IMG/VR virus record: IMGVR_UViG_3300030098_001581
Span: 586-29,861 of that record
DNA from: a virus
DNA: 29,276 nt
Strand: one strand, 5' to 3'
This document shows, in pieces, positions 3,796-25,892 of the stretch; positions within the stretch are counted from its first letter, which is position 1; each line of letters opens with the position of its first letter. The position numbers and the translations under genes were made by a program. Below the pieces are notes generated by a model. That model searched no databases, had not been told where the DNA came from, and worked only from the letters and a program-made list of their open reading frames with translations.

Positions 3796-3806
3796 TATAA
3801 ACCAAT

Positions 3807-6800
3807 ATGAAGGAAAAAAAAGAAACAGGAGGATTAGACAACACAGATTTAATCCAACCAGGAGATCAAACATTAGATGCTAACAACTTAATAAATACTG
3901 TTCAAAGAGAGCCAGGAATACAAGGTAATTTATTAGAATCTTTAACAAAGCTACAATACATAAACAATCCATCTTTTGCTCCTATAGACACAAAGCTAAA
4001 GAAGGGAGAGTTTGAAGAGTATGATAGACTAATAGATGGTCCTTTCTCATTAATGGATAGTTCTGTTGATGACAGAAGAGCGTCGGGCCAGGGTCTAGGA
4101 GAAAAGCTATGGAACAGTTATGGTGTTAAACTTGCCCCTAAAATAGGTACACATGTTGTAGGATCTACAATAGGTCTTTTAAATGGTTTTGCTGAGGTAG
4201 GGATGGATTTATATGAGAATGGTCCTGCAGCATCTAATTGGAATAAATTTTTTAATAATGATTTCCAAAGATCATTAGACGACTTTAACAAATCATTAGA
4301 TGAAAAATTTCCTGCATACTACACATCACAAGAAAGAGATTTAGGATTTTGGCAATCTATAATTGGACCGGGAGCAGCTAACTTTTGGACTGACCAGTTT
4401 TCTCAAGGATTGTCCTTTGTTGCCGGAGCTGTCTTAGCTGAGTATGCAACTGGAGGGTTAGCTACCGCTATAATACCAGCTAAAACTGCTAACACACTTA
4501 AAAGAATATCTGCTTTAAGAAATACTGCATACGCACAAAAATCTACTGCAGCATTAAATGCACTTAATAAAATATCTAGAGCTGATAGAATATATGACGG
4601 TTTAACTACAGGTAGACGTTTACTTACTGGTGCTTTTTATGAGGCAGGTGTAGAAGCTAGACATAACTATGACAGTGTAGTTCAAGGTTTAACTGAGCAA
4701 CATATTAAAGATAAAGGAATGCCTCCTACTAATGAGGAAATGGCAAAAATAAAAAACATAGCTACACAAGTATCTAATGGAGTCTTTGCAGGTAACGCTG
4801 CTTTGGTTGGGTATAGTAACATGTTACTCTTTCCTAAAATTTTTGGTAGTGGTATGAAAGCTAATAAGTCTTTTAAAGGTAAGATAATGAAAGACGATAA
4901 GGGTGTGTATAAAGCAAAGCACCAAGACTGGGGAGGATTTAGAACTTGGACTCATAGAAATATATATGGTAAAGGCGCTTGGGGTAGATACGCAGCATAC
5001 GAAGGTATGGTAGAAGAGGGAGGTCAAAAAACTTTAGATCTAGCAGGACAGTATGCAGCATCTGATATGTATACATCTAGCAAGAACCCAAGCCAAATGG
5101 AAGCTATAGGAGGTATAATGAATAATATTCATGACGGTATGGCTGATGCTTATAGTAGTACTGAAGGGCAAAAAGAAATATTTTTAGGGTTTGTATTAGC
5201 TGCAGTAGGGCTACCTAGTTTTGTTAAAACAAATGAAAAAGGGGAAAAACAATATGGATTCTTTTATGGTAGAGCAGGAGGTGTAAAAGATTACTTAAAG
5301 CAATATGCAGAAAGTAGAAAAGAGGTAGAGGATTTAGTTAAATATATGAATGAAAATCCTGATGCCTTAAAAGCTATAAAGGAAAACTTTGATATGCTTA
5401 ATGATATATCTACCGCAGAAGATAAAAGAGATTATGCTGATGCATCTAATAATGACTTTGCATATAAAAATGCAGATCATGATGCGTTTTTTGCTTTTGT
5501 ATTTAGTAGACTAAGGTCAGGGTATTATGGGGATGTTGCAGATACTATAAATGATATAAGAAACATGGATGATGATACTTTTGAAACCATGTTTAAGTAT
5601 GAAGAACAGACAAAAAACATGTCTGAAAAAGAGCGTAAAGAGTTTTTAAATAAAAGAAAAACTAAAGTTGCAGACTCACACCTAGAAAGAGCAGAAAAAA
5701 TAAAAAAGATATATGAAAGTCTAGATAATACTAAACTTGGAGATAAAGCAAAAAAGATGATGGCTCAAGCATTGTCTACTACTGCAGACTTAGATGCAAG
5801 AGAACAAAAACTTATCCAAGAGCTAGAAGAGCAAGGAGGATTTACCTTAACGGCAGTTGTAAATAGAGAGGAGTCTGACTCGCAGGCTAACCAAAACATA
5901 CTACAAAGAGTTGCAGAGTTTACTATGGAAAAACTTGGTCTTAAAGGTAAAGATATAATGGAAAACTCTGAAACTGGTAAAACGGTAAAAAAAGAAGTTG
6001 GTATAAAAGAGTTTACCACACCAGGATCTCCTGCCTTTGTTGCACACAGAATGATACTAAAACTAAAATCTCTTAAAAAACAAAGAGAAATATATGAAGA
6101 GAATGATCAGGTAGATGAGTACATAGAGATTACAGAAAAGATAGAAAGTTTAGAAGATGAATTAGCAGAATTACAAAAAGCTATAAGTCAAGGAATCGCA
6201 CCTAATATATCAGAAGAGGAAAAACAGATACTAGAAGAGTACAAGAAAAAAGATCCTGTTGGTTATGAAATGAACAAAGAGGAGATGATTACGAAGCTGC
6301 AAGATCTTAGAAGAATAAGAGCTAAGAGACATCAAATGTTAAACCTTGTACAACAAATGATAGATCCTGCTGCTGCTGAAGATACAATACAAGGCTTTGA
6401 GGAAATAGTAAATGATATACTAACAGAAGAAGAAAGAAAAAGTTTACCACCAGAAGAGCAAAGACTAGCTAGAAAATATAAAGGTAAAATAATAGAGTTT
6501 GACTATACAGATAAAAATGGAAACACTAGAAGACATAGAGTTCTTGTAAAAGATACAAGCACAAAGGGTCTTGTAAAACTACCTAAAGAAGAAACATTTA
6601 AGTTACTACAAAGACAAAAAGATTTAAATAATAAAGCTGTTAAAACACCAGATGATCTAGCAGAGTTAGAACTAATAGCAGAAGAATTAAAACAAGGTAA
6701 TCACATTACAGGGTTAGATCACTTTAATTTTAACATATTAGAAAAAGCAGCTGATATAAAAATAATGACTGAGCAAGAGTTATTGTTAAACCAGCTAGAG

Positions 6801-9800
6801 GCTGTTACATCTGTTATTCAAGAAGGTATAGGAGAGGATATAGCAAATGCTACAGAAGCTTTAGCACAATCTAAAGAAATGCTTTTAAACATTGCTAGAC
6901 AAGTAAGAGATATAAAAAAGGCTATACGAAATGCTAAATCAGACACTAGAGGTAGAACATATGTAAATCTAAATTCTATTGGTAGGAAAGGTGCATTCTC
7001 TATAGCTACGGCGCAGTCTATGATAGCTGAGCTAATAATACAAGAACAAGTATACAAACAACAGTTAAAAGACTTTACAGAGCGTGTAAATGCCTTACAA
7101 GAAAACGCACTAAGAATACAAGCAATTCACACAGCTTTAACTAACCCACAAATTGTTTCAGACTTTTTAAATAGAAATGCAACTAGAGAAGAGATATATG
7201 GTTTTATAGATGACATGTTAGGTTTAACTTCTTTAGAAGAGTTTAATAAACAACTAGGAGAATCAGGGTTCTTTAACATAAATGAGCTTACAGAGTTAAT
7301 AGGTACTAAAAACAAAGAGGGTGGCTATGATGTAGATAATCAATTATTACAAGACTTTTTAGATTTAGCGGGGCAAGACAACATATCTAAAGATTATCTA
7401 GATTTAATGAATAGTGAGTTAGCTAATTTTAGAAAAGAATTAGAGCTACTTACTCAACATAGACAGGACATAGAAAGAATTATAAACAAAATGGTTGATC
7501 CAGCTACTGGTCAAGCTATAATGTTCCCTGAAGAAGGTTTGACTCAAGATGATTTAATTTACTTACAAGCACAGTTACGTCTAGTTAATGAGGACCTTGC
7601 TACTATACAAAGCATTATAGATATGATGGAAGCAGAAGTAGATCAAGGTATTAGTGATGCTGTAAATTCTGATGTAATACAACAAAGAAGAATAGCTACA
7701 AATACAGCGCAGCAAATACTAGACACATTTAATGAATACCAACAATGGTTAATGAGCACTCAATTAGATCCTGCAGAAGAAGCAAAGCTAGATTCTGGTG
7801 AAACTGTTACAACACTAGAAGATCTATCTTCTCTGTCTGAGTATGAGACTAGATATAGTCCTTCTTTTACAGATGTGGGTTGGACTAAAACTTCAGGTAA
7901 TCATAGTGCTGCACTAGATAGATGGAGAAATGTATACAAACCATTAGTAGACAGTGGTAAAGAACTTACTAAAGCAGAGCAGTTAGAGTTACAACATATT
8001 ATGAGTCAGCTTAGATTCTTTAGAAAGACATATGATATAGTTGACTACAGTAAAACAAAAGGAGCTAGATTACAAATTGTAACTAGATATAATATAAGAC
8101 CAGAGTGGAAAGATAAAATTGTATTCTTTGACATTGCACAAGCAGAGAAGACAGGACGATATGATGATGAGTCTAACTTTAAGTATGTAGATGATTTAAC
8201 TCCTAATGAAACTAAAACAAAAGAAAAGCCAAGGTATAGTGATAACAAAGTTCCTGTTAAAAGAGAAACTTTTACTCAGACTTTAGATGATGGAACAATA
8301 ATAAAATATAGAGCCATTACTCGTTTAGATGGTTCTGTATATTTCCAAGCGATAAAAGAAGGAGAAAGTGATTTTTCAGCAACTTCTAAAAAGCTAGACA
8401 TAAAAGCTGGTGAAAATATTACTCCAAAACAAGTATTAGAAAATCTAGAGCCAACCTCTACTGTCACGCTTGATAAAACTGAGGGTTACAAAAGTGTAAT
8501 GAGGGAGCAGATGTTTGATAGGTTAACTCAAGAACAAAAAGAAAGAGTAGATCCTACAAGAGCAGCAAAAACAAAAACATCTGAAGTACAAAGAGATGAA
8601 ACTCTTGAGGATATTAAATTATTACTAGTAGATGCTAACGGTCAACCTATACTTGTAGATGGAGAGTTTGCTTATACTAATATGAACTCTTCTAGCACGG
8701 TTAATTCTAAAGGCGAGTTTAAAGGTGATAAAAGAGTAGATCTAGATGCTAATGGCAACTTAGTAGAAGATGTTCGTATTGCACAAGAGTCATTTATAAA
8801 TGAAAGAAATAAAATACTAAGTGATAATCAAGAAAGATTTTTCTATATAAAGAGTAAGTCTCAAGGAATGCCAATACCACAAGGTCAATCTTTTGGAGAC
8901 GTAAAAAGCTCTGTAATGGGAAGACTAAAGATAAACAAGGGTGGTAGATTTGTAGTTGTAAATAAAGAAGAAGATTTAAAAGATCTTAAACTTGAGCTAG
9001 CACTGCCTACAGAAGGAGTTAAGGGTCCTAATCAGAAAGTGACTCTATTTAATGATAGATTTATTGTTACAAGCAGGTTTGTTTATTTTGGAACACCTAG
9101 CAGAGGATACAACAACTCTCTAAACTTAGTTCCAGGGTTGATCTCTAGGTTAAGTGAAAACCAAGTTAATAATATATATAACCTGTCTAGGTATTTTGCA
9201 GAGAATGCAACAGAAGCCGGAATAAACTTAGGTGGTAAAGGATTTACAACTATACTTAAAGATCAAATCATGTATGGTAGTAGATCACAAGAGCGGGTAA
9301 GGCAAGAGTTTGCTATATATATGAAAGATGATACTATATACTTTGGTGAAAACGGTAGTATTACGTTAGAACAATTAAAAGATCCTGCTAAGTTTGAGGA
9401 TAAACATGAAGAGTATAAATCTTTTTTAAGGACATTGTATTTTAATGTTAATGCAACACAATTAAAAAAAGATAAACAAGCTAGAAAAGATGCATTAGAT
9501 AGAAAAAGAGCAACAAAGCAAACAGGATTTGTAGCACCTGAGTATACACCATTTATAGAAGTATTGGTAAGAGATGATTTAAGTGTAGAAACAGTAGAGT
9601 ATGATAACTATACACACTACTTAACATCTGAAAGAAATAGAGAACTAGAAGATATTCCTGTAAGAGTTGACATGCCGCTAGCATTTAATCCTTCTAAGAG
9701 TGTTAATCAGGCAGAGTTTCCACAGTTTATGAATATATATCTTAACCATTACAACCAGTCGTTTACTAAAGACAATGGTGATAATCAAAAGGCTGACTCT

Positions 9801-12800
9801 CAACAAACAAACCCTGACCAAATAGGTGACTCTCCCTTTACACAGTCAACAGAGTTAGAACTTGGAAAGAGTTCAACCTTGACTTACGTTGACCCGCAAA
9901 CAGGAGAAGTAAAAACTCTTCAGGTTGTTAATACTGATATAGAAGATAAAGATCGTATAGAAGTTAATACATCTAAAGCACAAGGGCCTACACTAGAAGA
10001 GCAGACTGGAGGAGCATTTTCAGATATATCAAATGAAGATCCTGATGATGTATTCTTCTTAGAGTCTATGCAACAACCAGCTCCTTTTGACTTAAACGAA
10101 GAGTTAGAATGGTTTAATGCTAATATGCCTAAAGATAAAAATGGTAACCCACTAGTAGGTATAGATCTAATAAGAGGACTAATAGATGGTAAGGGGCTTG
10201 GTAAGTTTACTAAAGATGGTAATATATTATTATCTGATTTACTTACTACACCTGGTATTGTATACCACGAGGCGTTTCATGCTATAACTAGAAAGTTTAT
10301 GTCTCCTGCAGAAAGAGCTCAGTTATATGCTGAGGTTAGAGGTATGAGAGGTTCTACTAAAACATTTAAGGGAGACACTAAAAAAATGTCTGAGCTTAGT
10401 GATAAAGAAGCAGATGAGTGGTTAGCAGAAGAGTTTAGAGAATATGTTCTAGCTGATGGTAACTATAAGGTAGGGTCAAGAGTTAAGAAAAGTCTTATTG
10501 ATAGAATATTTGACAAGATATATGCAGCGCTAAATTTCTTTGTGAACAACCAATCACAAGTAGAAACACTTATGTCTAGAATAAATAGTGGATACTTTAG
10601 TAATCCTACTACAGATGTTACTATATACGACGTAAAAGAAGGGGCGTATTATGAGGGATCAAAACTTACCGCTACAATGAAAAACAATGTAATGGAAGGT
10701 ATGACAGTTCTGCTATTTAACAAAGCGCTAAGAAACAACCAGTTTACATTAGATGACTTTGTGGGTGGTAATCCTATAACAGAGCTGATGTATGGAGGAT
10801 TTGGTATAGGTAATACAGTATATACAGAAATAGAAAGAACTCTTAGAAAAGCTATACAGCTTAATCCACAAGCAGAAGAAAAGCTAACTAATACAATGTT
10901 AGCTATAAAAAATAACTGGCAAGAGTTAAAAGAAGATCATAAAAAATACTTAGAAAGATTTAAAGTAGAAGTTACAGATGAGCAGAATGAAAATGATAGA
11001 GTTAGAGAACAGTTTGGTAAACCACAAAATGAGATAGATCCTAGTGTATATCTACCAAAAGCAGTTAGACTATTATTTGCTACATTACCAAAGAGTAGAT
11101 TACTAGATCCTAAAGATCCTAATAGTAAACGAGTTATGGATATGAATGAGCACGGTTTGCCTAAACTTGTTGACTTTGGTAGTATAATGAACTTTATGTA
11201 TAAAGAAATGGCTAATACTGATCCTCTAGACTTTATGAAGAATCTAGACATGTTAGCAAACAAACGACCAGAACTACGATCTGCGTGGAACAGGCTAGGT
11301 ATGCATCAAGATTTGTCTGATAAAAGTAGTAATCAAATTAAGCTTATAATACAGACTATGATGCAGTTTGATCAGTCTAACAATAAATTCTACACACAGC
11401 TAATGACTAGAGATAATAGTAGAGTTTTAGTAGATAGCAATCAAAATAGAGTAGAAGATAAAGTTAGGTTTATGTGGTCTGCTAACTTCAAAGATAATAT
11501 ACAAAACTACAGGGGGTTAGGTAAAGATGTAAACGGAGAGTTAATCCTAAATGAGAAAGCAAAAGTAAAAGTTGGTGCTAAGGAAAAAACCTTTAAAGGT
11601 TGGGGTACAACTAGAAAGACTCCAGACGAAGCATTGCAGGTACTAGATAGATTAGGTATACAATTTACAGATCCTGACCTATTTGCAGCATTATATGTAG
11701 AAGAGTTTTCTGGTGTGTCCGAGGCTGTTAACTTTGTACTACAGGAAGTATACAACAAACCGGTTAGTGATATATTTAAAGGCAACATACAAAGAAACTT
11801 AAGAACACTTATTGATATAGAAGCAAGCTCTAATCCTTTAGCGGTAGATGCGCAGCATGTAAACCCTGAAGGTAAAATTGTACATGGAGTTAATTTAAAA
11901 ACATATGCTGATGTCTTAGTATCTAAACTAAATGGTAGTAAAGGGAGAGTAGAGATAGAAAATCTTTTAAAGCATGACAACTTAGTTAATTCACACTATT
12001 TAAATACTATGCTAGAAAGAGGAGAGACAATGCAGGTAGTAGTATTAGAAGGTGTACAACAGCAGTTTGGTAGAGGCAAACCTTTATCAAGAACTGGTCC
12101 TGTAGATATAGGAGTTATGTATGTAAACTCTGTGCTTAGTAATGGTATAATACCTTTACTGAGAACTGCAGATAAAAAGACAGAGTTTGGTATACAGTTT
12201 AGTGCTCCAACACTAGCGCTATCAAGAGATGAAATGCTTACAAGGCTACAAGGATATTTATCTGATGAGTTAAGAGTTGCTTCTAAATTTAATAGTAGAA
12301 GAAACTCTAAACTAAGACGTGTAGATAAACTAAAAGATAATGGAGGTAACTTAAGATTTTTTGCAGGTATAGTTCCTAGTTTACCTAGAAGTGAATACAA
12401 TAAAAAGTTAAGTGAGAGTAAAATATTAGAGCTTGTAAATAGAGAAGATGTAGTAGAAGACTTAAAAACATACTTAGCAAATGAGGTAGAAAAAACTACA
12501 AACACATTGACTCAATATAATATTGCGCCTGCAGGTATAGATTCTAGTTTGATGGACATAGCAATGCAACGTGCTGTGTTGACCGGTCAAAGGCCTGCTC
12601 AAATTATAGGTGAACAATTTACATATGAATATATGACTGGTATTATAGAACAGAGTAAACTATTGTTAGGAGACTTTGCATTGTATGGTCAAGACTTGTT
12701 CAAACGAACGTCTGGTATAAGTGGTACTAAAACATACCCAACGTCCGATCCAGAAATATTAGAGTGGATGAATACTAATATGCCTAACTCTTTATCTAAT

Positions 12801-15800
12801 AAAGATCATTCTAACATGTTAAGAGTGTCTAACAGAGCTGCTGTACAGGTAGAAGCACCATACTTAGATCAGTATATAGATACTCTTACTGCACTGGGAG
12901 CGCCATTAGATTTTCTAGATGTTGTAAGAAGAACATACTCTGACATGGAAGAGTTTGATGGTGGAGGATTTATTACATTAGATGCATATAGAAGCTTAAC
13001 ATATAGAACAGGTAAGTGGACAGCCGCACAGGAAGACTTTTATCAAAAAGTTGTAGAGGGTGAACCTATAGCTCCAGAAGACATGGCTATAATACCGCCT
13101 ATAAAACCACAACTATTTGGACCACAAGTTATAGATGGTTCTAGACTTATGACATTCCACAAGTATGCACTATTCCCAATAATACCAGGTTTATTACCGG
13201 GTACTAACTTTGAAGCAATAAATAATGATATGATTAATAATGATATTGATTATATGATATTTGAATCTGCAGTAAAAGTAGGAGGTATAAAAGAAGGACA
13301 AGAGTATGATCCTTTCTATATAGAAGCTGATGACTTTAGTGTGTATAAGCCTATGTCTGTTGATGAAAGTGGAGAGGTAGTTGGATTACAAGAATTAGCT
13401 TTTTCTGATTTAGGTATACAAGTAGAAACTGCACCTAAAACAAAACAGGAGACTAGTGAAGGGTCACAGTTAAGATCTTTACTACCAATAAATATATATG
13501 ACAATGGTAATGTTGCAGAAGAATATGCAGACTTAGAAAGTGTAATAGATGATTACCATGCGATAAATAATGCATTAGTCAGCAAAGACCTTAACAGTTT
13601 ACTAAACAAACTTAAACTTGTTAAAGATGAGTCTGGTATGTACAAACTTAAGTCTAATGATTTAGAAGAGTTTAAAAAGGTTCTTATAGAAGAGTTTAAG
13701 AAGAGAGATAATCCTGTACACACAGTTAAGTCTATAGAAAGATTACTAGACAGTGATACAAAATTTATAGAACAGTTATTTGAAAAGAACAAGATAGAAA
13801 ACTTATTATTCTCCTTGGTAAACAATAATGTACTTAAGAGAAAAATGCCGGGCGGGCAATTTGTTTTACAAGCAGCTACAGGATTTGAAGCTAGTCTTAA
13901 GGCATTAAAGCAAGAAGATTTTGATAGAGCAAGAGAATTAGGTCTAGACTTAGACGACGTAAAATTAAAACCATTAAAGTTCTATAGGAAAGAGGATCCA
14001 AATAATCCTAACTCTAAGACACTTGCTATGCAGGTATACCTACCTAGTAGGTTTCAGGGTATAGTAGATGTGAATGACTCTAATCTAGACTCTGAGTTAT
14101 TACAACTTATAGGATTCCGTATACCAACTGAGGGTCCTAACTCTGTAGACTTTATAGAAGTAGCAGGATTCTTACCTAAGTCATTTGGTGACACAGTTGT
14201 TGTTCCGTCTGAAATTGTAGGTAAAGCAGGATCTGACTACGATATTGATAAATTAAATATATACTTCCTTAACTCTACAAGAGTAGGAGGAAAACTACAA
14301 TCTGTACAGTTTGACCCTAACAAGTCAATTGAGTCACAAAGTAAAAAGGCATTACAGAATGAACTACAAAGAATTATTAAGAAAGTATTAGAACATCCTG
14401 CCAGCTTTGACCAATTAATATCTCCTGTAGGAGCATATAAAATTAAAGACCTAGCAAAAGATGTAGCAATTCTAAGAAATCCTAAGAACTTTGACTCAGA
14501 AGGCAATAGAATTAAGAAACCATTAAGTGAAATGTTTGGGTTAGAGAATATGATAAACACATCTCACAGACTATTTTCTGGATTAGGTGGTATAGGTATA
14601 GTTGCTACAAGTTCTACACAACATGCTAAAGGACAAAGACCAGGATTAAACTGGAACTTTACAGAACATGATGATATTAGATTTAGGTTTGAAGGTCTTG
14701 AGCCTTTCTCTTTATCTAGGGTTAGAGATGTAAATAATGGTAATAAGATAAGTAGTATTATAGGTGAGTATGTAACTGGATATGTAGATGTTACAAAAGA
14801 AGATTTTATATTTGACATTAATGCAGGTATAGACTATGCACCACTACACATGTTACTAGTTAGATCAGGTGTTCCTGTAGATCAAGTAATATACTTTATG
14901 TCACAACCTATAATAGATGAATACATATCAGAAAAGAATCTAAACTCTCCGCTATATGCACCATACCCATTAAAAACAGATACGGAAATAGTCAGTGAAC
15001 TAAAGAAAAGATATGGAGGTCAAGCTTCTAATGCTAATCTTAATGCTGAATTACTACGAGGTATGATTGGAAGAGGTGTATTTGGTAGAAATGATTTAAG
15101 TAATGTAGAGAAACAAATACAAGTACAAGTGCTAGAAGATTTTAAAGTATACCAAAGTTTAGCAGAGGACTTATTACTTTTAAAAGATGCTACTAGTGTA
15201 GACACATCATTGCTAAACAACGGTATGGCTATAAGGTACCTGGTACAATCTATAAATACACTAGAGCAAGAAGGACGTTTTGTAAACCTAGATGAATTAT
15301 TATATGGTAACGATGAAGGAGCATCAACTGTAGCAGGATTTACAAAAGTACTTATGGAGTCAGATGGATTGTTTGCAGACTTTAAATTAAGTGAGTACAT
15401 AACAGATGCTAAAGAGTTTATAGATAACAAACTATTTGAGAATGTAGATAAGAATGTAAGAGTAAAGTCAGAAGACATTATATACAAAATGAAAAAGTTT
15501 GAAAACTTCTTAGCAACATCAGTTGTGCAGAGCACTCCGTGGGACTACAAAAAATTACACGAACGAACAAAAGAATTGTTTACAGGTGAGAATAGCTTAC
15601 CAAGAAGAATAAACAACCTTAAGAGAACTGGTCAGTATTCACAAAACTTATTAATGCAAGAACTTACACCGGTGTTACAAGTTTATACTCAAGAGAGTAA
15701 TGAAAGTTCTGTAGATGGTTTAAAACTATTTACTAAAAAATTACAACCGTATGATGTAGATCTATTAGCAGATTCTTTTATGGAACTAAAAGAAATAAAT

Positions 15801-16427
15801 CCAAAGCTTGCAGAAGATCTTATAGTATTTAGTGTACTACAATCTGGATACGAGTTTAATCCTAACTCATTCTTCCAGATTATACCTGGTACAGAAGCAT
15901 TAGAGTTTTTATCTAAATACTTTGCAACAAATAAAAAAGAAGATAGAACTAGTAACATATTGTATAAAGGTAATATGGAAAACTTATGGCAAGATTTTCA
16001 TAGAAACTATTACTCAGATAATAAGGTTGTTCCTAATGTATACAGAAGCAGTGTTAAGCTGTCTAAGCAAACCGGAAACCCGTTTGTAATATTAAATAGA
16101 TCAGACCAATACATATCAGTTACAAGTCCTAAAGGAATAGAACGTGTAGGTAACAGGGAGATTAAAACATACAACACACAATTGTTTAAGGCAAATAAAT
16201 TTTTAGAAAATGGTAAAACTTTGTATATTGCGGATTCTACAAAAGGTGTTAAAAATAATTTAATAGAAGCTACTGGAGAGAATAGTACGGTAGTAAATAG
16301 AAATATAGTGTATCTATCTGAAGACATAGCAGCATCAGAACCAGAAGTAGTTAATACTGTTCTAGACCTAAAAGCAAACACAGGTAAAGAGATAAATGAT
16401 GTTATTGAAGACAAAAAATGTAAATAA
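3807..16427 (+). CDS. Giant polyprotein: zincin metallopeptidase plus crAss-like virion RNA polymerase
   Basis: One uninterrupted 4,206-residue protein. The C-terminal third carries an RNA polymerase core of the crAss-like/QDE-1-like type. D3477-Y-D3479-I-D3481 matches the metal-binding D-x-D-x-D triad of the family, and R3438-I-P-T lies 39 residues before it, close to the spacing between R-A-P-T and DFDGD in bacterial beta'. Conserved-looking basic segments around K3119 (FHKYALFP) and K3157 (SAVKVGG) precede the core. Residues 2154-2158 are HEAFH, with a candidate third zinc ligand about 50 residues on (E2208 or E2209), indicating a zincin peptidase that could process the chain. Residues 1-480 include hydrophobic stretches at about 200-226 and 457-473; about 600-1320 is a long charged helical, partly coiled-coil region. 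In phage phi14:2 the related polymerase is packaged and injected to transcribe early genes. The stop overlaps the next start as TAATG, suggesting coupled translation. Confidence 0.93.
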   Translation: MKEKKETGGLDNTDLIQPGDQTLDANNLINTVQREPGIQGNLLESLTKLQYINNPSFAPIDTKLKKGEFEEYDRLIDGPFSLMDSSVDDRRASGQGLGEKLWNSYGVKLAPKIGTHVVGSTIGLLNGFAEVGMDLYENGPAASNWNKFFNNDFQRSLDDFNKSLDEKFPAYYTSQERDLGFWQSIIGPGAANFWTDQFSQGLSFVAGAVLAEYATGGLATAIIPAKTANTLKRISALRNTAYAQKSTAALNALNKISRADRIYDGLTTGRRLLTGAFYEAGVEARHNYDSVVQGLTEQHIKDKGMPPTNEEMAKIKNIATQVSNGVFAGNAALVGYSNMLLFPKIFGSGMKANKSFKGKIMKDDKGVYKAKHQDWGGFRTWTHRNIYGKGAWGRYAAYEGMVEEGGQKTLDLAGQYAASDMYTSSKNPSQMEAIGGIMNNIHDGMADAYSSTEGQKEIFLGFVLAAVGLPSFVKTNEKGEKQYGFFYGRAGGVKDYLKQYAESRKEVEDLVKYMNENPDALKAIKENFDMLNDISTAEDKRDYADASNNDFAYKNADHDAFFAFVFSRLRSGYYGDVADTINDIRNMDDDTFETMFKYEEQTKNMSEKERKEFLNKRKTKVADSHLERAEKIKKIYESLDNTKLGDKAKKMMAQALSTTADLDAREQKLIQELEEQGGFTLTAVVNREESDSQANQNILQRVAEFTMEKLGLKGKDIMENSETGKTVKKEVGIKEFTTPGSPAFVAHRMILKLKSLKKQREIYEENDQVDEYIEITEKIESLEDELAELQKAISQGIAPNISEEEKQILEEYKKKDPVGYEMNKEEMITKLQDLRRIRAKRHQMLNLVQQMIDPAAAEDTIQGFEEIVNDILTEEERKSLPPEEQRLARKYKGKIIEFDYTDKNGNTRRHRVLVKDTSTKGLVKLPKEETFKLLQRQKDLNNKAVKTPDDLAELELIAEELKQGNHITGLDHFNFNILEKAADIKIMTEQELLLNQLEAVTSVIQEGIGEDIANATEALAQSKEMLLNIARQVRDIKKAIRNAKSDTRGRTYVNLNSIGRKGAFSIATAQSMIAELIIQEQVYKQQLKDFTERVNALQENALRIQAIHTALTNPQIVSDFLNRNATREEIYGFIDDMLGLTSLEEFNKQLGESGFFNINELTELIGTKNKEGGYDVDNQLLQDFLDLAGQDNISKDYLDLMNSELANFRKELELLTQHRQDIERIINKMVDPATGQAIMFPEEGLTQDDLIYLQAQLRLVNEDLATIQSIIDMMEAEVDQGISDAVNSDVIQQRRIATNTAQQILDTFNEYQQWLMSTQLDPAEEAKLDSGETVTTLEDLSSLSEYETRYSPSFTDVGWTKTSGNHSAALDRWRNVYKPLVDSGKELTKAEQLELQHIMSQLRFFRKTYDIVDYSKTKGARLQIVTRYNIRPEWKDKIVFFDIAQAEKTGRYDDESNFKYVDDLTPNETKTKEKPRYSDNKVPVKRETFTQTLDDGTIIKYRAITRLDGSVYFQAIKEGESDFSATSKKLDIKAGENITPKQVLENLEPTSTVTLDKTEGYKSVMREQMFDRLTQEQKERVDPTRAAKTKTSEVQRDETLEDIKLLLVDANGQPILVDGEFAYTNMNSSSTVNSKGEFKGDKRVDLDANGNLVEDVRIAQESFINERNKILSDNQERFFYIKSKSQGMPIPQGQSFGDVKSSVMGRLKINKGGRFVVVNKEEDLKDLKLELALPTEGVKGPNQKVTLFNDRFIVTSRFVYFGTPSRGYNNSLNLVPGLISRLSENQVNNIYNLSRYFAENATEAGINLGGKGFTTILKDQIMYGSRSQERVRQEFAIYMKDDTIYFGENGSITLEQLKDPAKFEDKHEEYKSFLRTLYFNVNATQLKKDKQARKDALDRKRATKQTGFVAPEYTPFIEVLVRDDLSVETVEYDNYTHYLTSERNRELEDIPVRVDMPLAFNPSKSVNQAEFPQFMNIYLNHYNQSFTKDNGDNQKADSQQTNPDQIGDSPFTQSTELELGKSSTLTYVDPQTGEVKTLQVVNTDIEDKDRIEVNTSKAQGPTLEEQTGGAFSDISNEDPDDVFFLESMQQPAPFDLNEELEWFNANMPKDKNGNPLVGIDLIRGLIDGKGLGKFTKDGNILLSDLLTTPGIVYHEAFHAITRKFMSPAERAQLYAEVRGMRGSTKTFKGDTKKMSELSDKEADEWLAEEFREYVLADGNYKVGSRVKKSLIDRIFDKIYAALNFFVNNQSQVETLMSRINSGYFSNPTTDVTIYDVKEGAYYEGSKLTATMKNNVMEGMTVLLFNKALRNNQFTLDDFVGGNPITELMYGGFGIGNTVYTEIERTLRKAIQLNPQAEEKLTNTMLAIKNNWQELKEDHKKYLERFKVEVTDEQNENDRVREQFGKPQNEIDPSVYLPKAVRLLFATLPKSRLLDPKDPNSKRVMDMNEHGLPKLVDFGSIMNFMYKEMANTDPLDFMKNLDMLANKRPELRSAWNRLGMHQDLSDKSSNQIKLIIQTMMQFDQSNNKFYTQLMTRDNSRVLVDSNQNRVEDKVRFMWSANFKDNIQNYRGLGKDVNGELILNEKAKVKVGAKEKTFKGWGTTRKTPDEALQVLDRLGIQFTDPDLFAALYVEEFSGVSEAVNFVLQEVYNKPVSDIFKGNIQRNLRTLIDIEASSNPLAVDAQHVNPEGKIVHGVNLKTYADVLVSKLNGSKGRVEIENLLKHDNLVNSHYLNTMLERGETMQVVVLEGVQQQFGRGKPLSRTGPVDIGVMYVNSVLSNGIIPLLRTADKKTEFGIQFSAPTLALSRDEMLTRLQGYLSDELRVASKFNSRRNSKLRRVDKLKDNGGNLRFFAGIVPSLPRSEYNKKLSESKILELVNREDVVEDLKTYLANEVEKTTNTLTQYNIAPAGIDSSLMDIAMQRAVLTGQRPAQIIGEQFTYEYMTGIIEQSKLLLGDFALYGQDLFKRTSGISGTKTYPTSDPEILEWMNTNMPNSLSNKDHSNMLRVSNRAAVQVEAPYLDQYIDTLTALGAPLDFLDVVRRTYSDMEEFDGGGFITLDAYRSLTYRTGKWTAAQEDFYQKVVEGEPIAPEDMAIIPPIKPQLFGPQVIDGSRLMTFHKYALFPIIPGLLPGTNFEAINNDMINNDIDYMIFESAVKVGGIKEGQEYDPFYIEADDFSVYKPMSVDESGEVVGLQELAFSDLGIQVETAPKTKQETSEGSQLRSLLPINIYDNGNVAEEYADLESVIDDYHAINNALVSKDLNSLLNKLKLVKDESGMYKLKSNDLEEFKKVLIEEFKKRDNPVHTVKSIERLLDSDTKFIEQLFEKNKIENLLFSLVNNNVLKRKMPGGQFVLQAATGFEASLKALKQEDFDRARELGLDLDDVKLKPLKFYRKEDPNNPNSKTLAMQVYLPSRFQGIVDVNDSNLDSELLQLIGFRIPTEGPNSVDFIEVAGFLPKSFGDTVVVPSEIVGKAGSDYDIDKLNIYFLNSTRVGGKLQSVQFDPNKSIESQSKKALQNELQRIIKKVLEHPASFDQLISPVGAYKIKDLAKDVAILRNPKNFDSEGNRIKKPLSEMFGLENMINTSHRLFSGLGGIGIVATSSTQHAKGQRPGLNWNFTEHDDIRFRFEGLEPFSLSRVRDVNNGNKISSIIGEYVTGYVDVTKEDFIFDINAGIDYAPLHMLLVRSGVPVDQVIYFMSQPIIDEYISEKNLNSPLYAPYPLKTDTEIVSELKKRYGGQASNANLNAELLRGMIGRGVFGRNDLSNVEKQIQVQVLEDFKVYQSLAEDLLLLKDATSVDTSLLNNGMAIRYLVQSINTLEQEGRFVNLDELLYGNDEGASTVAGFTKVLMESDGLFADFKLSEYITDAKEFIDNKLFENVDKNVRVKSEDIIYKMKKFENFLATSVVQSTPWDYKKLHERTKELFTGENSLPRRINNLKRTGQYSQNLLMQELTPVLQVYTQESNESSVDGLKLFTKKLQPYDVDLLADSFMELKEINPKLAEDLIVFSVLQSGYEFNPNSFFQIIPGTEALEFLSKYFATNKKEDRTSNILYKGNMENLWQDFHRNYYSDNKVVPNVYRSSVKLSKQTGNPFVILNRSDQYISVTSPKGIERVGNREIKTYNTQLFKANKFLENGKTLYIADSTKGVKNNLIEATGENSTVVNRNIVYLSEDIAASEPEVVNTVLDLKANTGKEINDVIEDKKCK

Positions 16428-19400
16428 TGGCTTGTAATATAATAAGAAATGAAAACGGAAAATTAGTAAATGTTACTGCAGAAAATGGTAACAACTCTAA
16501 ACTGTTTAGAGATATAGTTAAATTAGGTTACGATAAAGAAACTGCTCTAAAAAAATGGGCTAATACATATACACCTACATTTAGACAATGGTTTGGAGAA
16601 GGTGTAGTAGATTCTAATGGTGAGCCTATGATAAGTATAATAGATAACCAGCCAGTGTTTACAGCTGACGACAATACAACAAAGCACGCTACAGAAAACT
16701 TAGGGACATACATATCTAAAAAAGATCCTAGTCCACTATTAAATTCTATAAAAAGAAGATTTGATTTAGTTAAAACAGACGGAACTGTAAAAAATATTTC
16801 TCCATCTAGAGATATATTTGCAATAAAAGATGCTATAGAAAAACAATATCCAGGTGTTAGAGCTTTTATATTAAAAGATGTAGGTGGTGATTTTATTAAA
16901 CTAGATGTTACACCGCACCTTGATGTAGATAATATATATCATCAGGTGCAAGCAGAACAAATGCTAGAAAGAGATAGACAGGTTGATAGGGCAATGAATC
17001 AGTTCTTTAGATCTCTAGGTATTAGGCTTAGAGAGGTAGACAGTATAAAAAATAGTAAAGGAGAGACTGTAAATGCTGTTGCTTTAGCAGACATGGTTAA
17101 CAAAATTGTACAGGTTGCTACAAATAAATCTGGTATAGATACATTACCAGAAGAGGCTGCACACTTTATAGTTGAGTTATTAAGAGTAGAGGGCAGCCCG
17201 CTATTTCAAGCAATGATGAATAACATAACAGGTTACAAAGTATACAGAGATGTTGTTGAGAATGACACATACCAAGAATTATATAAAGGAGATGTAAACA
17301 AACTTAAACAGGAAGCTATAGGTAAACTTATAGCTAAGCATATAATAAATAATATAAAAGGTGAGCCAGTTGTTAAAATAGTTAGAGCACAAACTTGGTT
17401 TGACAGAGTTCTTGAATTTCTAAAACAGGTATTTGGAAGAGTGCAATCAGATCCTTTTGCTGAAGCATCGCTTCTTGCACTGAATGATTCTATTAATGAC
17501 TATATAGATACAGAAAGAGGTATAGGAAATATAGAGGGTGAGTATTATCAGGTAGAACCTACAAAAAGAAACGAACCTAAAGATGTAACTAAGCCTATAT
17601 TAGAAAAGCTTAATCAAGAAAATGAAAACTGGTCTACAGAGTCTATGAGTTTAGAAGAGGCAGGACTAAAACAGCCATGGTTTGTAGAAGAGGGTAATGA
17701 GACAGAAAGATATGTAGGTAAAAAGAGTGGTCCTTATGCAGGTAAGTTCTTAAAAGGAAGAGTATCTGACGAAGTTAAAAAACATTTCTATAAAATAAAT
17801 AGAGGTAAGATTAGAGATCTGAGCGGTAAAGAGAAGCAGTTGCGTTTAGATAATAATGAGATGCGTAAAATGGTTGGTACAATGGGCCACAAAGTGTTAC
17901 AGGATTTAGTAGATCTATATGCAAACAGAAAAGGTAATAGACAACAGATATTAAATAACTCCTTGTTTACTGCAGCACAATTCCAGGTTTTAGAAAACGG
18001 AGTAAAAGACATTATATCTAAGATCAGAGCACAACAAAAAGCAATTGACCCAGAAGGTAAAGTTGTTATAAGAACTGAGCAGATGACTGTAAACAGAGCA
18101 GAAGATACCGGGGGAAGCATTGACTTGATGGCATTATTTAGCGATGGTAGTGCGTCTATATATGATTACAAATTTATATCACCATCTAAATATTCTGGAT
18201 ATGTAGATAAGATGACTAATAGAATAGTAGAGGACCCACACTCAGTTAAGATGCAGACTTACGACATGCAAATATCACAGTATAAAAACCACCTACTAGA
18301 TAACTATGGAGTTACACAGGTAAGGCAATCTAGAATTGTACCTATACACATAAGATTTAAAACTACTAATGATGGTAAAATTACAAACCAAATTAGTGTA
18401 GTACAAATGGGTACAAAGTACAGTGAGTTCTTGGAACAATTACCCGTAGCAGAGGAGATGACTAACTTTGATGATATAAATAAAATAATTAAAAAATTAA
18501 TATCACGTAAAGAGTTGGTAGACAGACAGTTACAGACTAAAAAATATAAAGCAGGTAATACTTTTGAGTCATTGAAAGCAAGACAGGCGCAGATAACAAA
18601 ACAACTAAGAGTATTACAAATAGATCAGGATGTTGCATATATAGTTAAGTCTTTAAAAAATGACATAGAAACTATAAACCAAAGATTGGGGGAGAACATA
18701 GATGTATTAAAAGATGGTAGTCCTAACCCAAACTACTTATCAGACATAGATCTAAATGAGTTGTTAAAAGATTTGACTTTCTATCAATCAATTGTAGAGC
18801 TACATGATTATGTAGATTACATGAAAAATACCAATAAAGAGAAGTATGAAGAGTATAGAGTGTTAAGAGATAGATTAGCAGGGTTTTTAGCACAAACAAT
18901 AACACAGGTAGAAGGTAAGATATTAGAAAGAATAAACGACAAGGCAATGGAGAGGGGTGTACAGGGTATAAAAAGCTTTAACGTTGATGTAAATTGGATG
19001 ACCTCTAACTTTGTAAACCTATCTAAACAAAATAATCCCTACCTAAGAAATCTATGGGAGATAATGGATGAGCTTAATTTTACTAAACGTAAACTAGTAA
19101 AAAATAAAGCTGAAGAAATACAAAGAGTGCAAGATGCGTTTGTAGGTAACCGTGGTATAAAAGCTTTTGATGATATACTAAACGAAGACGGAACATTTAA
19201 ATCTAAATTCTCTAAAGAGTTTTATGCGGCAAGATCTAAAGCACTACAAAGCGGAGACTATACTTGGTTTAATTTGGAAAATGGTAATGTAGTTATAGAC
19301 GAAAATTATTATAAAAAGAAATACAAAGAGTTTAGAGCAGGCAAACTAAAAGCTTTACAGGCAAAGTTTAAAGACAATCAAGCAGCAATAAATAGAGAAA

Positions 19401-21607
19401 TAAAAAAATGGGAACTAGCACATGATGTAAAGAACCACATGAATACAGCTGCAATAAACAAAGGAGGTCAGTACTTTTTGAGGCCAGCAGAAAAATGGAT
19501 AAGTGAGGATTATAAGAAAATACAAAACACACCAGAAATAAAAGAATTTTATGATTTGTATATGAAAACCGTACAAGAGGTAGAAGAAATGTATGGTGAA
19601 AGATTGGGACCTAACTTTACAGCTGAGGTTCATAAAGGATTTGTTGAGTCTGCATATGTTAATGGAACTATAAGTGAAGGTATTGATAGCGGTATAGAAC
19701 ATTTACAAATTAGAGAACATGATTTAACATATGGTATAAGAGACGAAAATACAGGGAGACTAGTAAAACAAATACCTAAACTATATATAAGACCTATAAG
19801 AGATAAAAATGGTAATATAGACCCATCATTAAAAACTAGAGATTTAGGTAAAGGGCTTTTGTTATTATATAATGCAGCTGTAGATTACCAACTTAAATCA
19901 CAGGTTCTACCAGAAATACAAGGTATGGAAGCTATACTTAGCAGTAAAAAAGCAATTGAGGTAGAGTCTACAGATAGTTTTGGTAACATTTTAACTAACG
20001 CTAAAAACATATATAAAAAATATTCAGAGCAACCAGAAAACTTATATAAAACGTATCAAAGATTTGTAGATGCATACATATATGGTACAGAATTAGACTC
20101 TAAAGATCTTAAGATAGGAAGTAAAAGTATTAGCCTAAGTAGTCAAAAGTCTATATTAGGATTAAAAAACTTACACTCGATCACACAATTAGGTCTTAAA
20201 GCTCCCGTAGCATTTGGAGCGTTTATAGCTGGTATGGTTGGTTTACAGTACGAAGCATCTAAAGGATCTTTTATAACTAAAAAGAATTTAAACAAAGCTA
20301 GAGCAGCACTTATAAAAGCAGACCCTAAAATGAGAGCTTTAGTAGAACATTTAGAATACTACCAAAAAGATGATGCAGAGTCTAGAGCACAGAGGTTGTC
20401 AGCTCAGTATGCAACAAGACATTTAACAAATGACAAGTGGTTTGCATTTTTATCTACAGCTGATAGAGGTATAGATGCTATAGCAATATACGCAACAGCT
20501 TTAAATATGGGTGTTGATGAAAATGGAAATGTAAAAAGATTAGAGTTTTTACCTGAAGGATCTAAAAACATTGTAGAATTAATGGAACTTACAGAAAATC
20601 CATTATGGAGAGGAACCACAACTAATGTAGCAGATGCGGCAGTAGATAGATATAAAGTTAACATTGAAGGGTTATCGGACCAGGGTCAAAGAAAATTAAG
20701 GAATGTAGGAAGAGAAATATCGAATAAAGTGAAGGGTACAATGAGTTCAGAAGATAAAGTATTGTACAATAGTAATTTCTTTTTAAGATTAATGATGCAC
20801 TACAAGTCTTGGTTGCCTGGTGTAGCGCTAGCTAGATTTGGAAAAACAAAGTATAATAATATACTAGAAACATTTGATGAAGGTACATGGACAAGTGTAT
20901 TTAGTAATATGGGAATCTCTAAAGATTTAACCGCACCTGAAGCACTAGATACAGAAATACACCTATTAGAATATGTTAAGTCGATTGGTTTAGACCTAGC
21001 TAAAATAGGAGTTGATGTAGTTACCTTTGGCTATTTTAATTTATCACAACCAAAAGAAGATTTTGCAAGAGCTAAGTTTGATTTATGGGCAGCTAACAAC
21101 GCTACTAATCCTCAATTTGAAGAGAAATTAAAAGATAAAGATGCTAGAGAAGAGCTATTCCAAGAGTTTATAAAAATGAAACAAGGAAATATTAAAGCTG
21201 TTCTTACAGAACTAAGAGCTAGTTTAGCATTTTTCTTGATGTTAGCGGCACTGGGTGGTGATGAAGATAAAGATGGGAAAACAGATATTAGACAAACATA
21301 TCTTGGTAGAAAATTCCATAATATAATGGAAAGAGCATCTAGAGAAACTAGAGTATTTACAAATCCAAGAGGATTCTTTGAGGGAGGGAGAGCTACAGGT
21401 ATACCATTGTTAAGTTTAGGTAAACAAATAGCTGACTTAGCAGGTAACACTATAGATGAAACTGCAGATATTATAACAGGAGAAGAACCTTACACTGAAA
21501 GAGATAGAGCAGAAAGATTTTACTACACATTTAAACTTACTCCGGGGTTAAACGCAATTACAAAAGCAGTCGAGTTCTTCCCACAACAAAAATATGAAAG
21601 ATACTAA
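16427..21607 (+). CDS. Giant polyvalent-type protein with RecB/Cas4-like nuclease and degenerate zincin
   Basis: This 1,726-residue protein follows the polymerase polyprotein. Residues 52-67 (FRQWFG, then VVDSNGEP) resemble the opening of ART-PolyVal domains, but the expected YHGT strand is not present. At 242-246 LPEEAAHF looks like a zincin helix with the first histidine replaced by Glu (EExxH). Residues 488-619 hold a PD-(D/E)xK nuclease of RecB/Cas4 type: H488 (MGHKVLQ), D566 (SIDLMA), D580-Y-K582 and Q615..Y619 (MQISQYK). A long helical part follows. Near 1455-1490 lies MMHYKSWLPG with an ARFG segment, which I recall as recurrent in crAss-like giant proteins. Hydrophobic stretches occur near 1262-1280 and 1594-1611, the latter followed by DEDKDGKTD (1612-1620), a D-x-D-x-D-G-x-x-D calcium-loop pattern. 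It is likely packaged and injected; the nuclease may act on host or phage DNA. Function is inferred. Confidence 0.93.
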   Translation: MACNIIRNENGKLVNVTAENGNNSKLFRDIVKLGYDKETALKKWANTYTPTFRQWFGEGVVDSNGEPMISIIDNQPVFTADDNTTKHATENLGTYISKKDPSPLLNSIKRRFDLVKTDGTVKNISPSRDIFAIKDAIEKQYPGVRAFILKDVGGDFIKLDVTPHLDVDNIYHQVQAEQMLERDRQVDRAMNQFFRSLGIRLREVDSIKNSKGETVNAVALADMVNKIVQVATNKSGIDTLPEEAAHFIVELLRVEGSPLFQAMMNNITGYKVYRDVVENDTYQELYKGDVNKLKQEAIGKLIAKHIINNIKGEPVVKIVRAQTWFDRVLEFLKQVFGRVQSDPFAEASLLALNDSINDYIDTERGIGNIEGEYYQVEPTKRNEPKDVTKPILEKLNQENENWSTESMSLEEAGLKQPWFVEEGNETERYVGKKSGPYAGKFLKGRVSDEVKKHFYKINRGKIRDLSGKEKQLRLDNNEMRKMVGTMGHKVLQDLVDLYANRKGNRQQILNNSLFTAAQFQVLENGVKDIISKIRAQQKAIDPEGKVVIRTEQMTVNRAEDTGGSIDLMALFSDGSASIYDYKFISPSKYSGYVDKMTNRIVEDPHSVKMQTYDMQISQYKNHLLDNYGVTQVRQSRIVPIHIRFKTTNDGKITNQISVVQMGTKYSEFLEQLPVAEEMTNFDDINKIIKKLISRKELVDRQLQTKKYKAGNTFESLKARQAQITKQLRVLQIDQDVAYIVKSLKNDIETINQRLGENIDVLKDGSPNPNYLSDIDLNELLKDLTFYQSIVELHDYVDYMKNTNKEKYEEYRVLRDRLAGFLAQTITQVEGKILERINDKAMERGVQGIKSFNVDVNWMTSNFVNLSKQNNPYLRNLWEIMDELNFTKRKLVKNKAEEIQRVQDAFVGNRGIKAFDDILNEDGTFKSKFSKEFYAARSKALQSGDYTWFNLENGNVVIDENYYKKKYKEFRAGKLKALQAKFKDNQAAINREIKKWELAHDVKNHMNTAAINKGGQYFLRPAEKWISEDYKKIQNTPEIKEFYDLYMKTVQEVEEMYGERLGPNFTAEVHKGFVESAYVNGTISEGIDSGIEHLQIREHDLTYGIRDENTGRLVKQIPKLYIRPIRDKNGNIDPSLKTRDLGKGLLLLYNAAVDYQLKSQVLPEIQGMEAILSSKKAIEVESTDSFGNILTNAKNIYKKYSEQPENLYKTYQRFVDAYIYGTELDSKDLKIGSKSISLSSQKSILGLKNLHSITQLGLKAPVAFGAFIAGMVGLQYEASKGSFITKKNLNKARAALIKADPKMRALVEHLEYYQKDDAESRAQRLSAQYATRHLTNDKWFAFLSTADRGIDAIAIYATALNMGVDENGNVKRLEFLPEGSKNIVELMELTENPLWRGTTTNVADAAVDRYKVNIEGLSDQGQRKLRNVGREISNKVKGTMSSEDKVLYNSNFFLRLMMHYKSWLPGVALARFGKTKYNNILETFDEGTWTSVFSNMGISKDLTAPEALDTEIHLLEYVKSIGLDLAKIGVDVVTFGYFNLSQPKEDFARAKFDLWAANNATNPQFEEKLKDKDAREELFQEFIKMKQGNIKAVLTELRASLAFFLMLAALGGDEDKDGKTDIRQTYLGRKFHNIMERASRETRVFTNPRGFFEGGRATGIPLLSLGKQIADLAGNTIDETADIITGEEPYTERDRAERFYYTFKLTPGLNAITKAVEFFPQQKYERY

Positions 21608-22048: not shown

Positions 22049-22788
22049 AAATAATAATTTAAGTCTAAGGTTTCTTTATCTATATCCATAATACTGAGTA
22101 ACTCAGAATCTTCAGGAAGTTCTGCATCTAATTTTCGTTCCAACTCTACTTTTCTTTCATTAGATTTAAATAAAATTTTAGCTAGAGCTGATTCTACACC
22201 CATATTGTGAAAGTCTAAAATCTTAAGTTTATACTCATCACTTAGTTTAGAATACTTGCCGTCTTTAAAAAGTTTAAAGTTTTTTCTATGTTTTTTAGGA
22301 ACAGAAAATATATAAACTACATGGTTAGGATCTGCATCATAAGAAGTAACAAAATTTCTAAACTTCTTTAGAGCTAGATCAAACTTTGCAAACAACGGAT
22401 CTTGCGACCAGCTGTACAATAAAATTATATGATCTTCTATAGTATCTGTTTTTATAAAAGCATTTATTAAATGACTGTCATATAAAAACAAATTTCTGTT
22501 ACCAGAAAGCATAGGTAAAACAAAAATAGAAGACTTGGTTCTTTCTGCAGTTTTAAGATGATAGGTAAGCACACCATTATGCATTACTTTATTAATAATA
22601 TTTACTTTATACGGCTCATTTTTAATTTTAATTGTGTCCCCTACAGTAATAAAGTAATTGTCAGGCATTGCTAAAGAAACTATTTTTCCATCTTTATATT
22701 GTGGAGTGATACTCAAAGTCCCACCAGATATAATAAAATATAAAGGGGCCTTTGGTTTAAATATCACTTCCTTGCAATTTATACCCAT
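22045..22788 (-). CDS. Conserved-looking phage protein of unknown function
   Basis: A 247-residue protein of unknown function. The first 75 residues look beta-rich (alternating hydrophobics and VGDTIKI), perhaps a small barrel. From about residue 85 it shows alternating hydrophobic strands and charged helices, with LPML, DPLFAKF, IFSVPKKH and FKDGKYSKLSDEYK. This resembles a family I recall from other large phages without an assigned role. The C-terminus is a charged helix rich in Glu, Asp and Leu. It overlaps the exonuclease gene by 10 bases upstream and the DUF1599 gene by 4 bases downstream, tying it to DNA metabolism by context. No catalytic motif, signal peptide or membrane segment is evident. 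I do not assign a function. Confidence 0.85.
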   Translation of the reverse strand: MGINCKEVIFKPKAPLYFIISGGTLSITPQYKDGKIVSLAMPDNYFITVGDTIKIKNEPYKVNIINKVMHNGVLTYHLKTAERTKSSIFVLPMLSGNRNLFLYDSHLINAFIKTDTIEDHIILLYSWSQDPLFAKFDLALKKFRNFVTSYDADPNHVVYIFSVPKKHRKNFKLFKDGKYSKLSDEYKLKILDFHNMGVESALAKILFKSNERKVELERKLDAELPEDSELLSIMDIDKETLDLNYYL

Positions 22789-23558
22789 TCGTCTTCTTCT
22801 TTGGTTTTGTTAATTTCAAATAAATGTACATTAAGGTCTGATTCTTGGCAATCTGTTTCACGCCACACATCTTCTTTGTTTTTTAGTATGTATACCAACT
22901 TAAAGGTCTCAGCAAAGTTACTAATTCCTTTGGCATATCCAAACTTTTCTATATATTTTTGTAGTACAAATGTAGGCATTTCGTCTGTATTTACATCTTC
23001 TAGCCACTTGTCCGCAGTCTTTGGGCCCACTTTTGGTATACCTGTAATACCATCAGTACTGTCACCCATAAGCATTTGTTTCCACAAAAATCTTGTAGCT
23101 TCGACCTCATCAACTACAACAGTTTCTGCTTTACCATAGTTATAATGTGTACCAATGTTTTGATATAAAACATCCTTGTCAGGACTACATATAACTGTAC
23201 CACCAAAAGGATTAATATCTTCGTTAAATTCCATGTGAAATATAGAAACAAGATCATCAGCCTCAAGCTGACTAACAGATCTAAATCCCCAGTGCTGATA
23301 AAGATATTCTTTTATAGCAGGAAATATAATAGGCTTGGCTCCATATTTTCTATTACCTTTATAAGCTTTAGTTTTAGCTGCAGCATATCTAAAACATTTA
23401 CCTGTTGTTAGAAAACCCATATAGTGTGTTGCTTTAGTTTCTTCAAAGATCTGTTGCAATCTACCGTCTAGACTTTCTAGCGCCTCTTCTAGGGTGGGCT
23501 TACCCATTTCATAATAGATTAAACTATCGCCATCTATTAATGCTATTTTCTTCTTCAT
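22779..23558 (-). CDS. 5'-3' exonuclease, FEN / T7 gp6-like
   Basis: A 259-residue structure-specific nuclease of the PIN/FEN superfamily. Acidic metal ligands appear in the right order: D9 and D11 (LIDGDS), E99/D101/D102 (LEADDL), D127 and D129 (SPDKDV), D166 and D169 (MGDSTDG). The basic YKGNRK (66-71) fits the arch region. GDSTDGITGIPKVGPKTADK (165-184) is the helix-three-turn-helix that holds duplex DNA. Length matches stand-alone phage exonucleases such as T7 gp6 and T5 D15, so a polymerase domain is not fused. It probably removes RNA primers or flaps, or degrades host DNA. The start at 23558 follows an A/T-rich leader with AATTAAA (23562-23568). It is preceded by a 97-base gap and overlaps the next gene by 10 bases. 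Confidence 0.95.
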   Translation of the reverse strand: MKKKIALIDGDSLIYYEMGKPTLEEALESLDGRLQQIFEETKATHYMGFLTTGKCFRYAAAKTKAYKGNRKYGAKPIIFPAIKEYLYQHWGFRSVSQLEADDLVSIFHMEFNEDINPFGGTVICSPDKDVLYQNIGTHYNYGKAETVVVDEVEATRFLWKQMLMGDSTDGITGIPKVGPKTADKWLEDVNTDEMPTFVLQKYIEKFGYAKGISNFAETFKLVYILKNKEDVWRETDCQESDLNVHLFEINKTKEEDEWV

Positions 23559-25881: not shown

Positions 25882-25892
25882 TTTAATTGATT
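25882..25892 (-). repeat. Recurrent 11-mer AATCAATTAAA, copy 2
   Basis: An exact minus-strand copy ends 10 bases before the ATG of the MoxR gene and overlaps the stop codon of the VWA gene. It fills most of the 19-base gap between the two genes. It may be a translation-initiation enhancer or a promoter element of the phage polymerase; function is not shown. Confidence 0.5.

Follow-up and report, generated by a model that had tools for sequence, protein, structure and literature searches.

What is the catalytic core of a multisubunit-like RNA polymerase doing inside a viral protein of several thousand residues? The question is raised by a stretch of 29,276 bp (the window) out of a viral contig of 29,861 bp, in which one open reading frame (P0002; 3807-16427, + strand) runs for 4,206 codons, uninterrupted under the standard code. 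The translation of positions 14112-14255, GFRIPTEGPNSVDFIEVAGFLPKSFGDTVVVPSEIVGKAGSDYDIDKL, contains the single RxPT of the protein (RIPT, R3438-T3441; 14118-14129, +), with the single DxDxD (DYDID, D3477 to D3481; 14235-14249, +) 39 residues further on. A first-pass annotation had pointed to this pair of motifs as the core of a crAss-like polymerase, and our analysis bears this out. The protein is best described as a fusion of a gp47-like cargo module, a predicted zincin and a predicted two-barrel RNA polymerase, and a sister contig encodes the same layout.

The polymerase module occupies residues ~2330-4206 (10794-16427, +; the start is approximate), and by homology and modelling is the counterpart of phi14:2 gp66 and crAss001 gp50. 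Pfam and NCBIfam searches of the whole protein gave no significant match. A single-sequence phmmer search matches the phi14:2 polymerase (6vr4_A) with E=1.8e-28, and the motifs are in register. The corresponding profile match has E=6e-266, although phi14:2 is itself one row of that profile. Relatives were taken from IMG/VR, and 65 polymerase cores were aligned, mostly 19-27% identical to that of the window. Residues K3100, K3157, R3438, P3440, D3477, D3479, D3481 and K3482, together with a few others, are identical in all 65 rows, and K3119 is kept in 64. In gp66 the eight listed invariant residues are K1012, K1065, R1322, P1324, D1361, D1363, D1365 and K1366. Such conservation among crAss-like polymerases rules out a chance occurrence of the motifs. 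The shared signature is R-[IV]-P ... G-x-D-[FY]-D-[IV]-D-K. The likeness to the R-A-P-T...DFDGD arrangement of bacterial beta' that had been proposed needs correction: the fourth position of RxPT is variable (T in 22 rows, N in 41 and V in two), and the residue before the third aspartate is I or V in all 65 relatives, where the DxDGD of bacterial beta' and QDE-1 has glycine.

The fold was predicted with AlphaFold2 for residues 2850-3770 without templates, from an alignment that included phi14:2 as one row. The model has a pLDDT of 80.5 and a pTM of 0.81. Foldseek comparison with the PDB returns 6vr4 as the best match (E=1.2e-32, TM 0.71, 18% identity, 1,020 alignment columns); the ranks below are mostly chains of multisubunit RNA polymerases, with non-significant scores. 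Because phi14:2 sat in the input alignment, the fold match is not fully independent of the homology to 6vr4; the phmmer match is independent of that alignment. The model predicts two double-psi beta-barrels in one polypeptide, as in 6vr4. The first strand-rich block (13101-13424, +), identified from the model strands and the 65-row alignment, would form the beta-like barrel and carries K3100, K3157 and the near-invariant K3119. The second (14016-14303, +), which rests on the model strands and the match to 6vr4, would form the beta'-like barrel with R-x-P and DxDxD. The predicted active site is made up of D3477, D3479 and D3481 as the metal-binding triad, R3438, and the invariant K3100 and K3157. 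The comparison with gp66 and the structure prediction thus both uphold the original assignment, and we are highly confident that the reading frame encodes a genuine crAss-like two-barrel single-polypeptide RNA polymerase, the predicted catalytic chain of a virion RNA polymerase. It might in principle be a catalytically dead relative with a structural role. That is most improbable, as no residue of the catalytic site varies; the four nearest relatives, 67-69% identical over the region, still have them all. The enzyme family has already been published, and the window adds a divergent member to it.

Where does the extra length come from? The N-terminal part of the chain (residues 1 to ~1980; 3807-9746, +) is a cargo module that BLAST and profile searches relate to crAss001 gp47, phi14:2 g067 and phi17:2 gp039. 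The BLAST matches to gp47 have E-values of 5e-12 and 6e-8, and that to g067 of 1e-6; phrog_32390 matches the module with E 3e-35. Against phi14:2, residues 145-467 align with g067 and residues 2910-3705 with g066. Against crAss001, gp47 aligns at 89-285, 276-705 and 2017-2230, and gp50 at 3038-3703. In phi14:2 the two are separate genes, g066 (2,180 aa) coming directly after g067 (1,797 aa). By these alignments the additional length is an in-frame fusion, in which residues ~1-2330 are gp47/g067-like and ~2330-4206 gp50/gp66-like, with the joint near 2230-2330. The profile match of phi17:2 gp039 (L013 15860-21733) to the first ~790 residues of the window protein is strong (E 8e-38) and covers model positions 20-789. 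Phi17:2 belongs to the Epsilon group, which is reported to be without the transcription block (PMC7886860), and therefore this N-terminal ~790-residue module has no inherent tie to the polymerase.

A reading frame of this size on a single metagenomic contig could be an assembly artefact that joins two genes. This explanation is refuted, and its probability is negligible: independent contigs at ~60-65% identity cross the same joint, one of them (L004) with the whole fused layout in a reading frame of 4,079 aa and two more (L002 and L005) in part, and the layout recurs in named genomes. In cr108_1 the same chain is found as 2,967 + 798 aa, the two parts being separated by a group I intron that falls within DxDxD. 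All four of the Suoliviridae genomes checked (cr125_1, cr4_1, cr55_1 and cr118_1) encode the fusion as one reading frame of 4,491-4,946 aa. In the Steigviridae crAss001, cr85_1 and cr128_1 the halves are separate genes. Giant fused crAss-like polymerases of up to ~6,000 aa have already been published (PMC10136315, PMC10770324). The idea that a length about double that of gp66 marks a differently organised polyprotein is thus sound relative to phi14:2, but it does not stand as a novelty, since fusions of this layout are frequent across the order.

The intron of cr108_1 (L007, NC_055878) matches Rfam RF00028 with 80 bits and lies at 16769-17087, within the DxDxD codons of the polymerase. In the crAss001-like L021 there is also a break near the same place (7515-8364), with two partial intron matches.

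The fused gene is one of four large reading frames on the + strand (3-1436, which is open and encodes 477 aa, 1426-3795, 3807-16427 and 16427-21607); smaller genes run the opposite way from 21.6 kb. Upstream lies P0003 (1426-3795, +; 789 aa), by gene order the positional counterpart of crAss cargo genes such as phi14:2 g068, with which BLAST and profile comparison found no significant sequence match. Downstream is P0004 (16427-21607, +; 1,726 aa), the counterpart of crAss001 gp49 (BLAST E 1e-15) and of cr108_1 gp052 (cr108_052, E 2e-59). The polymerase adjoins gp47- and gp49-like parts, as it does in the crAss transcription block. Residues 450-720 of P0004 (17774-18586) have a weak match to PD-(D/E)XK nucleases (PF12705, E 0.0098, below the cut-off). 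A similar region lies within gp47 in crAss001 (BLAST E 5e-4), and the domain may thus be passed from one large cargo protein to another. On the - strand are a 5'-3' exonuclease (22779-23558), an AAA ATPase (24693-25871) beside a DUF2201 metallopeptidase/VWA protein (25891-27063), a radical SAM protein resembling spore photoproduct lyase (27071-27925; Pfam E 1e-26) and a DUF1064 or phage endonuclease I-like protein, possibly a Holliday-junction resolvase (28484-28930).

The joint itself holds a further domain. Following a polar linker of low hydrophobicity that is probably disordered (residues 1981-2088; 9747-10070, +; model pLDDT < 50 for residues 2030-2090), residues 2089-2260 (10071-10586, +) form a predicted zincin metallopeptidase domain. 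Its HEAFH (residues 2154-2158; 10266-10280, +) is the predicted zinc-binding and catalytic motif, and E2204 (10416-10418, +), within E-x-x-A-E-x-F, the predicted third zinc ligand. All 23 seed sequences of the HExxH group share H2154, E2155, H2158, E2204 and A2207. HExxH occurs 36 times in the polymerase reading frames against 2.6 expected from shuffles, a count that includes near-duplicate loci, and in 29 loci, those with a degenerate motif included, it lies 1,281-1,523 residues ahead of DxDxD. The zincin profile finds the domain in most of the fused reading frames, and at the C-terminal end of gp47 in crAss001, cr85_1, cr128_1 and Dulem virus 41. Breaks between reading frames flank it, after the domain in crAss001 gp47 and before it in L045.

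In an AlphaFold2 model of the zincin (core pLDDT 77-92) a helix and short strands are followed by the HExxH helix (122-135 in model numbering) and a later helix carrying E2204 (170-186). Zincin-like MPTases of polyvalent proteins have an N-terminal helix, three strands and two C-terminal helices (PMC5512222); the predicted order of elements fits this, though an additional helix and strands are interposed. Foldseek gave no significant match with this model (best E 0.34), the weak matches including several zincins such as IrrE, selecase, Acel_2062 and Certhrax. The best PDB profile match of the region is also to a zincin, the Pro-Pro endopeptidase Zmp1, at only E=0.02. A relic of the zincin at the N-terminus of phi14:2-type polymerases was considered and found no support (hhalign probability 0.6%). 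The searchable text of the literature yielded no description of a zincin or metalloprotease domain in crAss-like phages, and of all that is described here only the zincin annotation may be new.

The motif is not intact everywhere. In one clade (L073, L078-L080, L088 and L093-L096) WEAFR replaces HEAFH and threonine replaces the glutamate of the third ligand. These phages carry gp47-like, polymerase and gp49-like parts in a single chain (>4,600 aa where there is enough sequence) and have no separate gp49-like gene downstream. The WEAFR domain cannot hold zinc as zincins normally do, and proteolysis at the joint is therefore not a general feature.

A second HExxH domain is found in the gp49/g065-like subunit of phi14:2-type phages (HEVVH, HEIMH or HEFGH, in the downstream reading frames of L022-L067). 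The gp49-like subunits of the window clade and of crAss001 have a conserved PEExAHF, with glutamate in place of the first histidine. In P0004 this is PEEAAHF, of the form EExAH (residues 242-246; 17150-17164), in what looks like the position of the second domain. Raw counts give a zincin at the joint only in 14 cases, downstream only in 27, in both places in 7 and in neither in 11 (Fisher p=0.007), the label of no joint zincin being uncertain for L074, L084 and L089, where the gp47-like gene may fall outside the examined stretch. These counts suggest that the two domains complement each other, but we do not claim a rule of exactly one active zincin per phage: the tree-aware test gave p about 1, with too few independent pairs, and the WEAFR clade has neither.

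To which phages does the window belong? In a quick tree of the polymerase core (75 rows), for which the program warns of long branches, the window and four sisters form one clade with support 100. This clade is joined by L075, L092 and the long-branched cr108_1 with support 99, a placement that is tentative owing to the long branches. The window contig has no capsid, portal or terminase genes, and its membership of Crassvirales therefore rests on homologous sister contigs. One of these, of 59.6 kb and with a polymerase 65% identical, encodes a TerL, portal and major capsid protein of crAss type; the TerL was found by PHROG, a Terminase_6N search of the sister contigs giving no match. A scan of viral contigs with a cr108 query also gave no match. 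The capsid and portal of the sister share only ~31-35% identity with those of the best-matching named phages, and the polymerase thus adds a lineage.

How might such a chain be used? In crAss001, gp47, gp49 and gp50 were detected in virions by mass spectrometry and are thought to traverse the tail partly unfolded (PMC10172136). For the phi14:2 enzyme, activity in vitro and a role in vivo in rifampicin-resistant early transcription have been reported (PMC10136315). By analogy, the fused chain would be made late and packed in the capsid as in phi14:2 and crAss001, polymerase and cargo module would leave through the tail, before the DNA or together with it, and the injected polymerase would transcribe the early genes; packaging, injection and early transcription are all inferred from these homologues. 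The zincin might then act as a protease on the chain, with the polar linker that precedes it as a possible site, so that the refolded polymerase could part from the translocated cargo half. That it frees the polymerase in this way during or after injection, and that many crAss-like polymerases are self-processing polyproteins, is an idea that we think unlikely. It is countered by the lack of a significant Foldseek match for the zincin model, by the WEAFR clade, which is fused without the ligands, and by N4, whose polymerase is packaged unprocessed (PMC5512222). Were it true, the packaging of a protease together with a polymerase would have arisen independently in crAss-like, N4-like and P23-45-like phages.

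A true fusion might also stay as one chain, the N-terminal half serving as a translocation or anchoring module that holds the polymerase at the entry pore and the zincin being structural; we lean tentatively towards this, at a probability that falls a little short of even. A coupling of DNA entry to transcription has been proposed for virion polymerase fusions, with crAss-like and N4-related ones named (PMC10770324), and the N4 polymerase that stays unprocessed also has an HExxH domain. The single chain of the WEAFR clade agrees with such a role. However, retention of the zinc ligands and the catalytic glutamate in 23/23 members of the HExxH group argues for catalysis there, and in steigviruses such as crAss001 each half has a gene of its own. 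The zincin could instead be an injected effector that cleaves host targets and has nothing to do with maturation of the polymerase, as has been proposed in some cases for the HExxH domains of injected polyvalent proteins (PMC5512222). Its retention on crAss001 gp47, a gene separate from the polymerase, would suit an effector, but the nearly fixed distance to DxDxD ties the domain to the joint, and we regard this role as improbable, more so than release of the polymerase by cleavage. The partners of crAss-like virion polymerases have been termed 'large proteins of unknown functions' (PMC10770324). With an HExxH domain that keeps its position, complete in most of the fused proteins but decayed in a single clade, single point mutations could test how a chain of >4,000 residues is injected and matured.

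Among the closest comparisons is phi14:2 gp66 (PDB 6vr4), which shares the two-barrel single-chain core, the R-x-P ... GSD[FY]DIDK motifs, the invariant lysines and a large adjoining downstream subunit. It differs in having RIPN where the window has RIPT, in being about 18-25% identical over most of the core, and in that neither gp66 nor the separate g067 has an HExxH zincin. The giant polymerase reading frames of the Suoliviridae (delta) are cr125_1 (4,502 aa), cr4_1 (4,491), cr55_1 (4,551) and cr118_1 (4,946). They share the order of N-terminal part, HEAFH zincin and polymerase with DxDxD in one frame, but belong to another polymerase clade, and those of cr125_1 and cr4_1 have in-frame stops under the standard code. 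Among the Steigviridae, crAss001 has the same three parts as virion proteins (PMC10172136), including an HEAFH zincin at the C-terminal end of gp47, but encodes them as three genes (gp47, gp49 and gp50), with gp47 on the opposite strand. In cr108_1 (gp054/gp053) the N-terminal part, zincin and polymerase are fused as in the window clade, with which it tentatively groups, aside from the intron that splits the chain. Further afield, the giant virion polymerases N4 gp50 and P23-45 gp96 each include a metallopeptidase domain in their polypeptide (PMC5512222, PMC12633501, PMC10770324). The N4 enzyme is a T7-type single-subunit palm polymerase, in contrast to the two-barrel core predicted here, while gp96 is a two-barrel polymerase fused to a tape measure protein, and we claim homology with it within the two-barrel core only. 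The presence of a metallopeptidase in the polymerase chain of N4 and P23-45 too suggests that this combination is a recurring theme.
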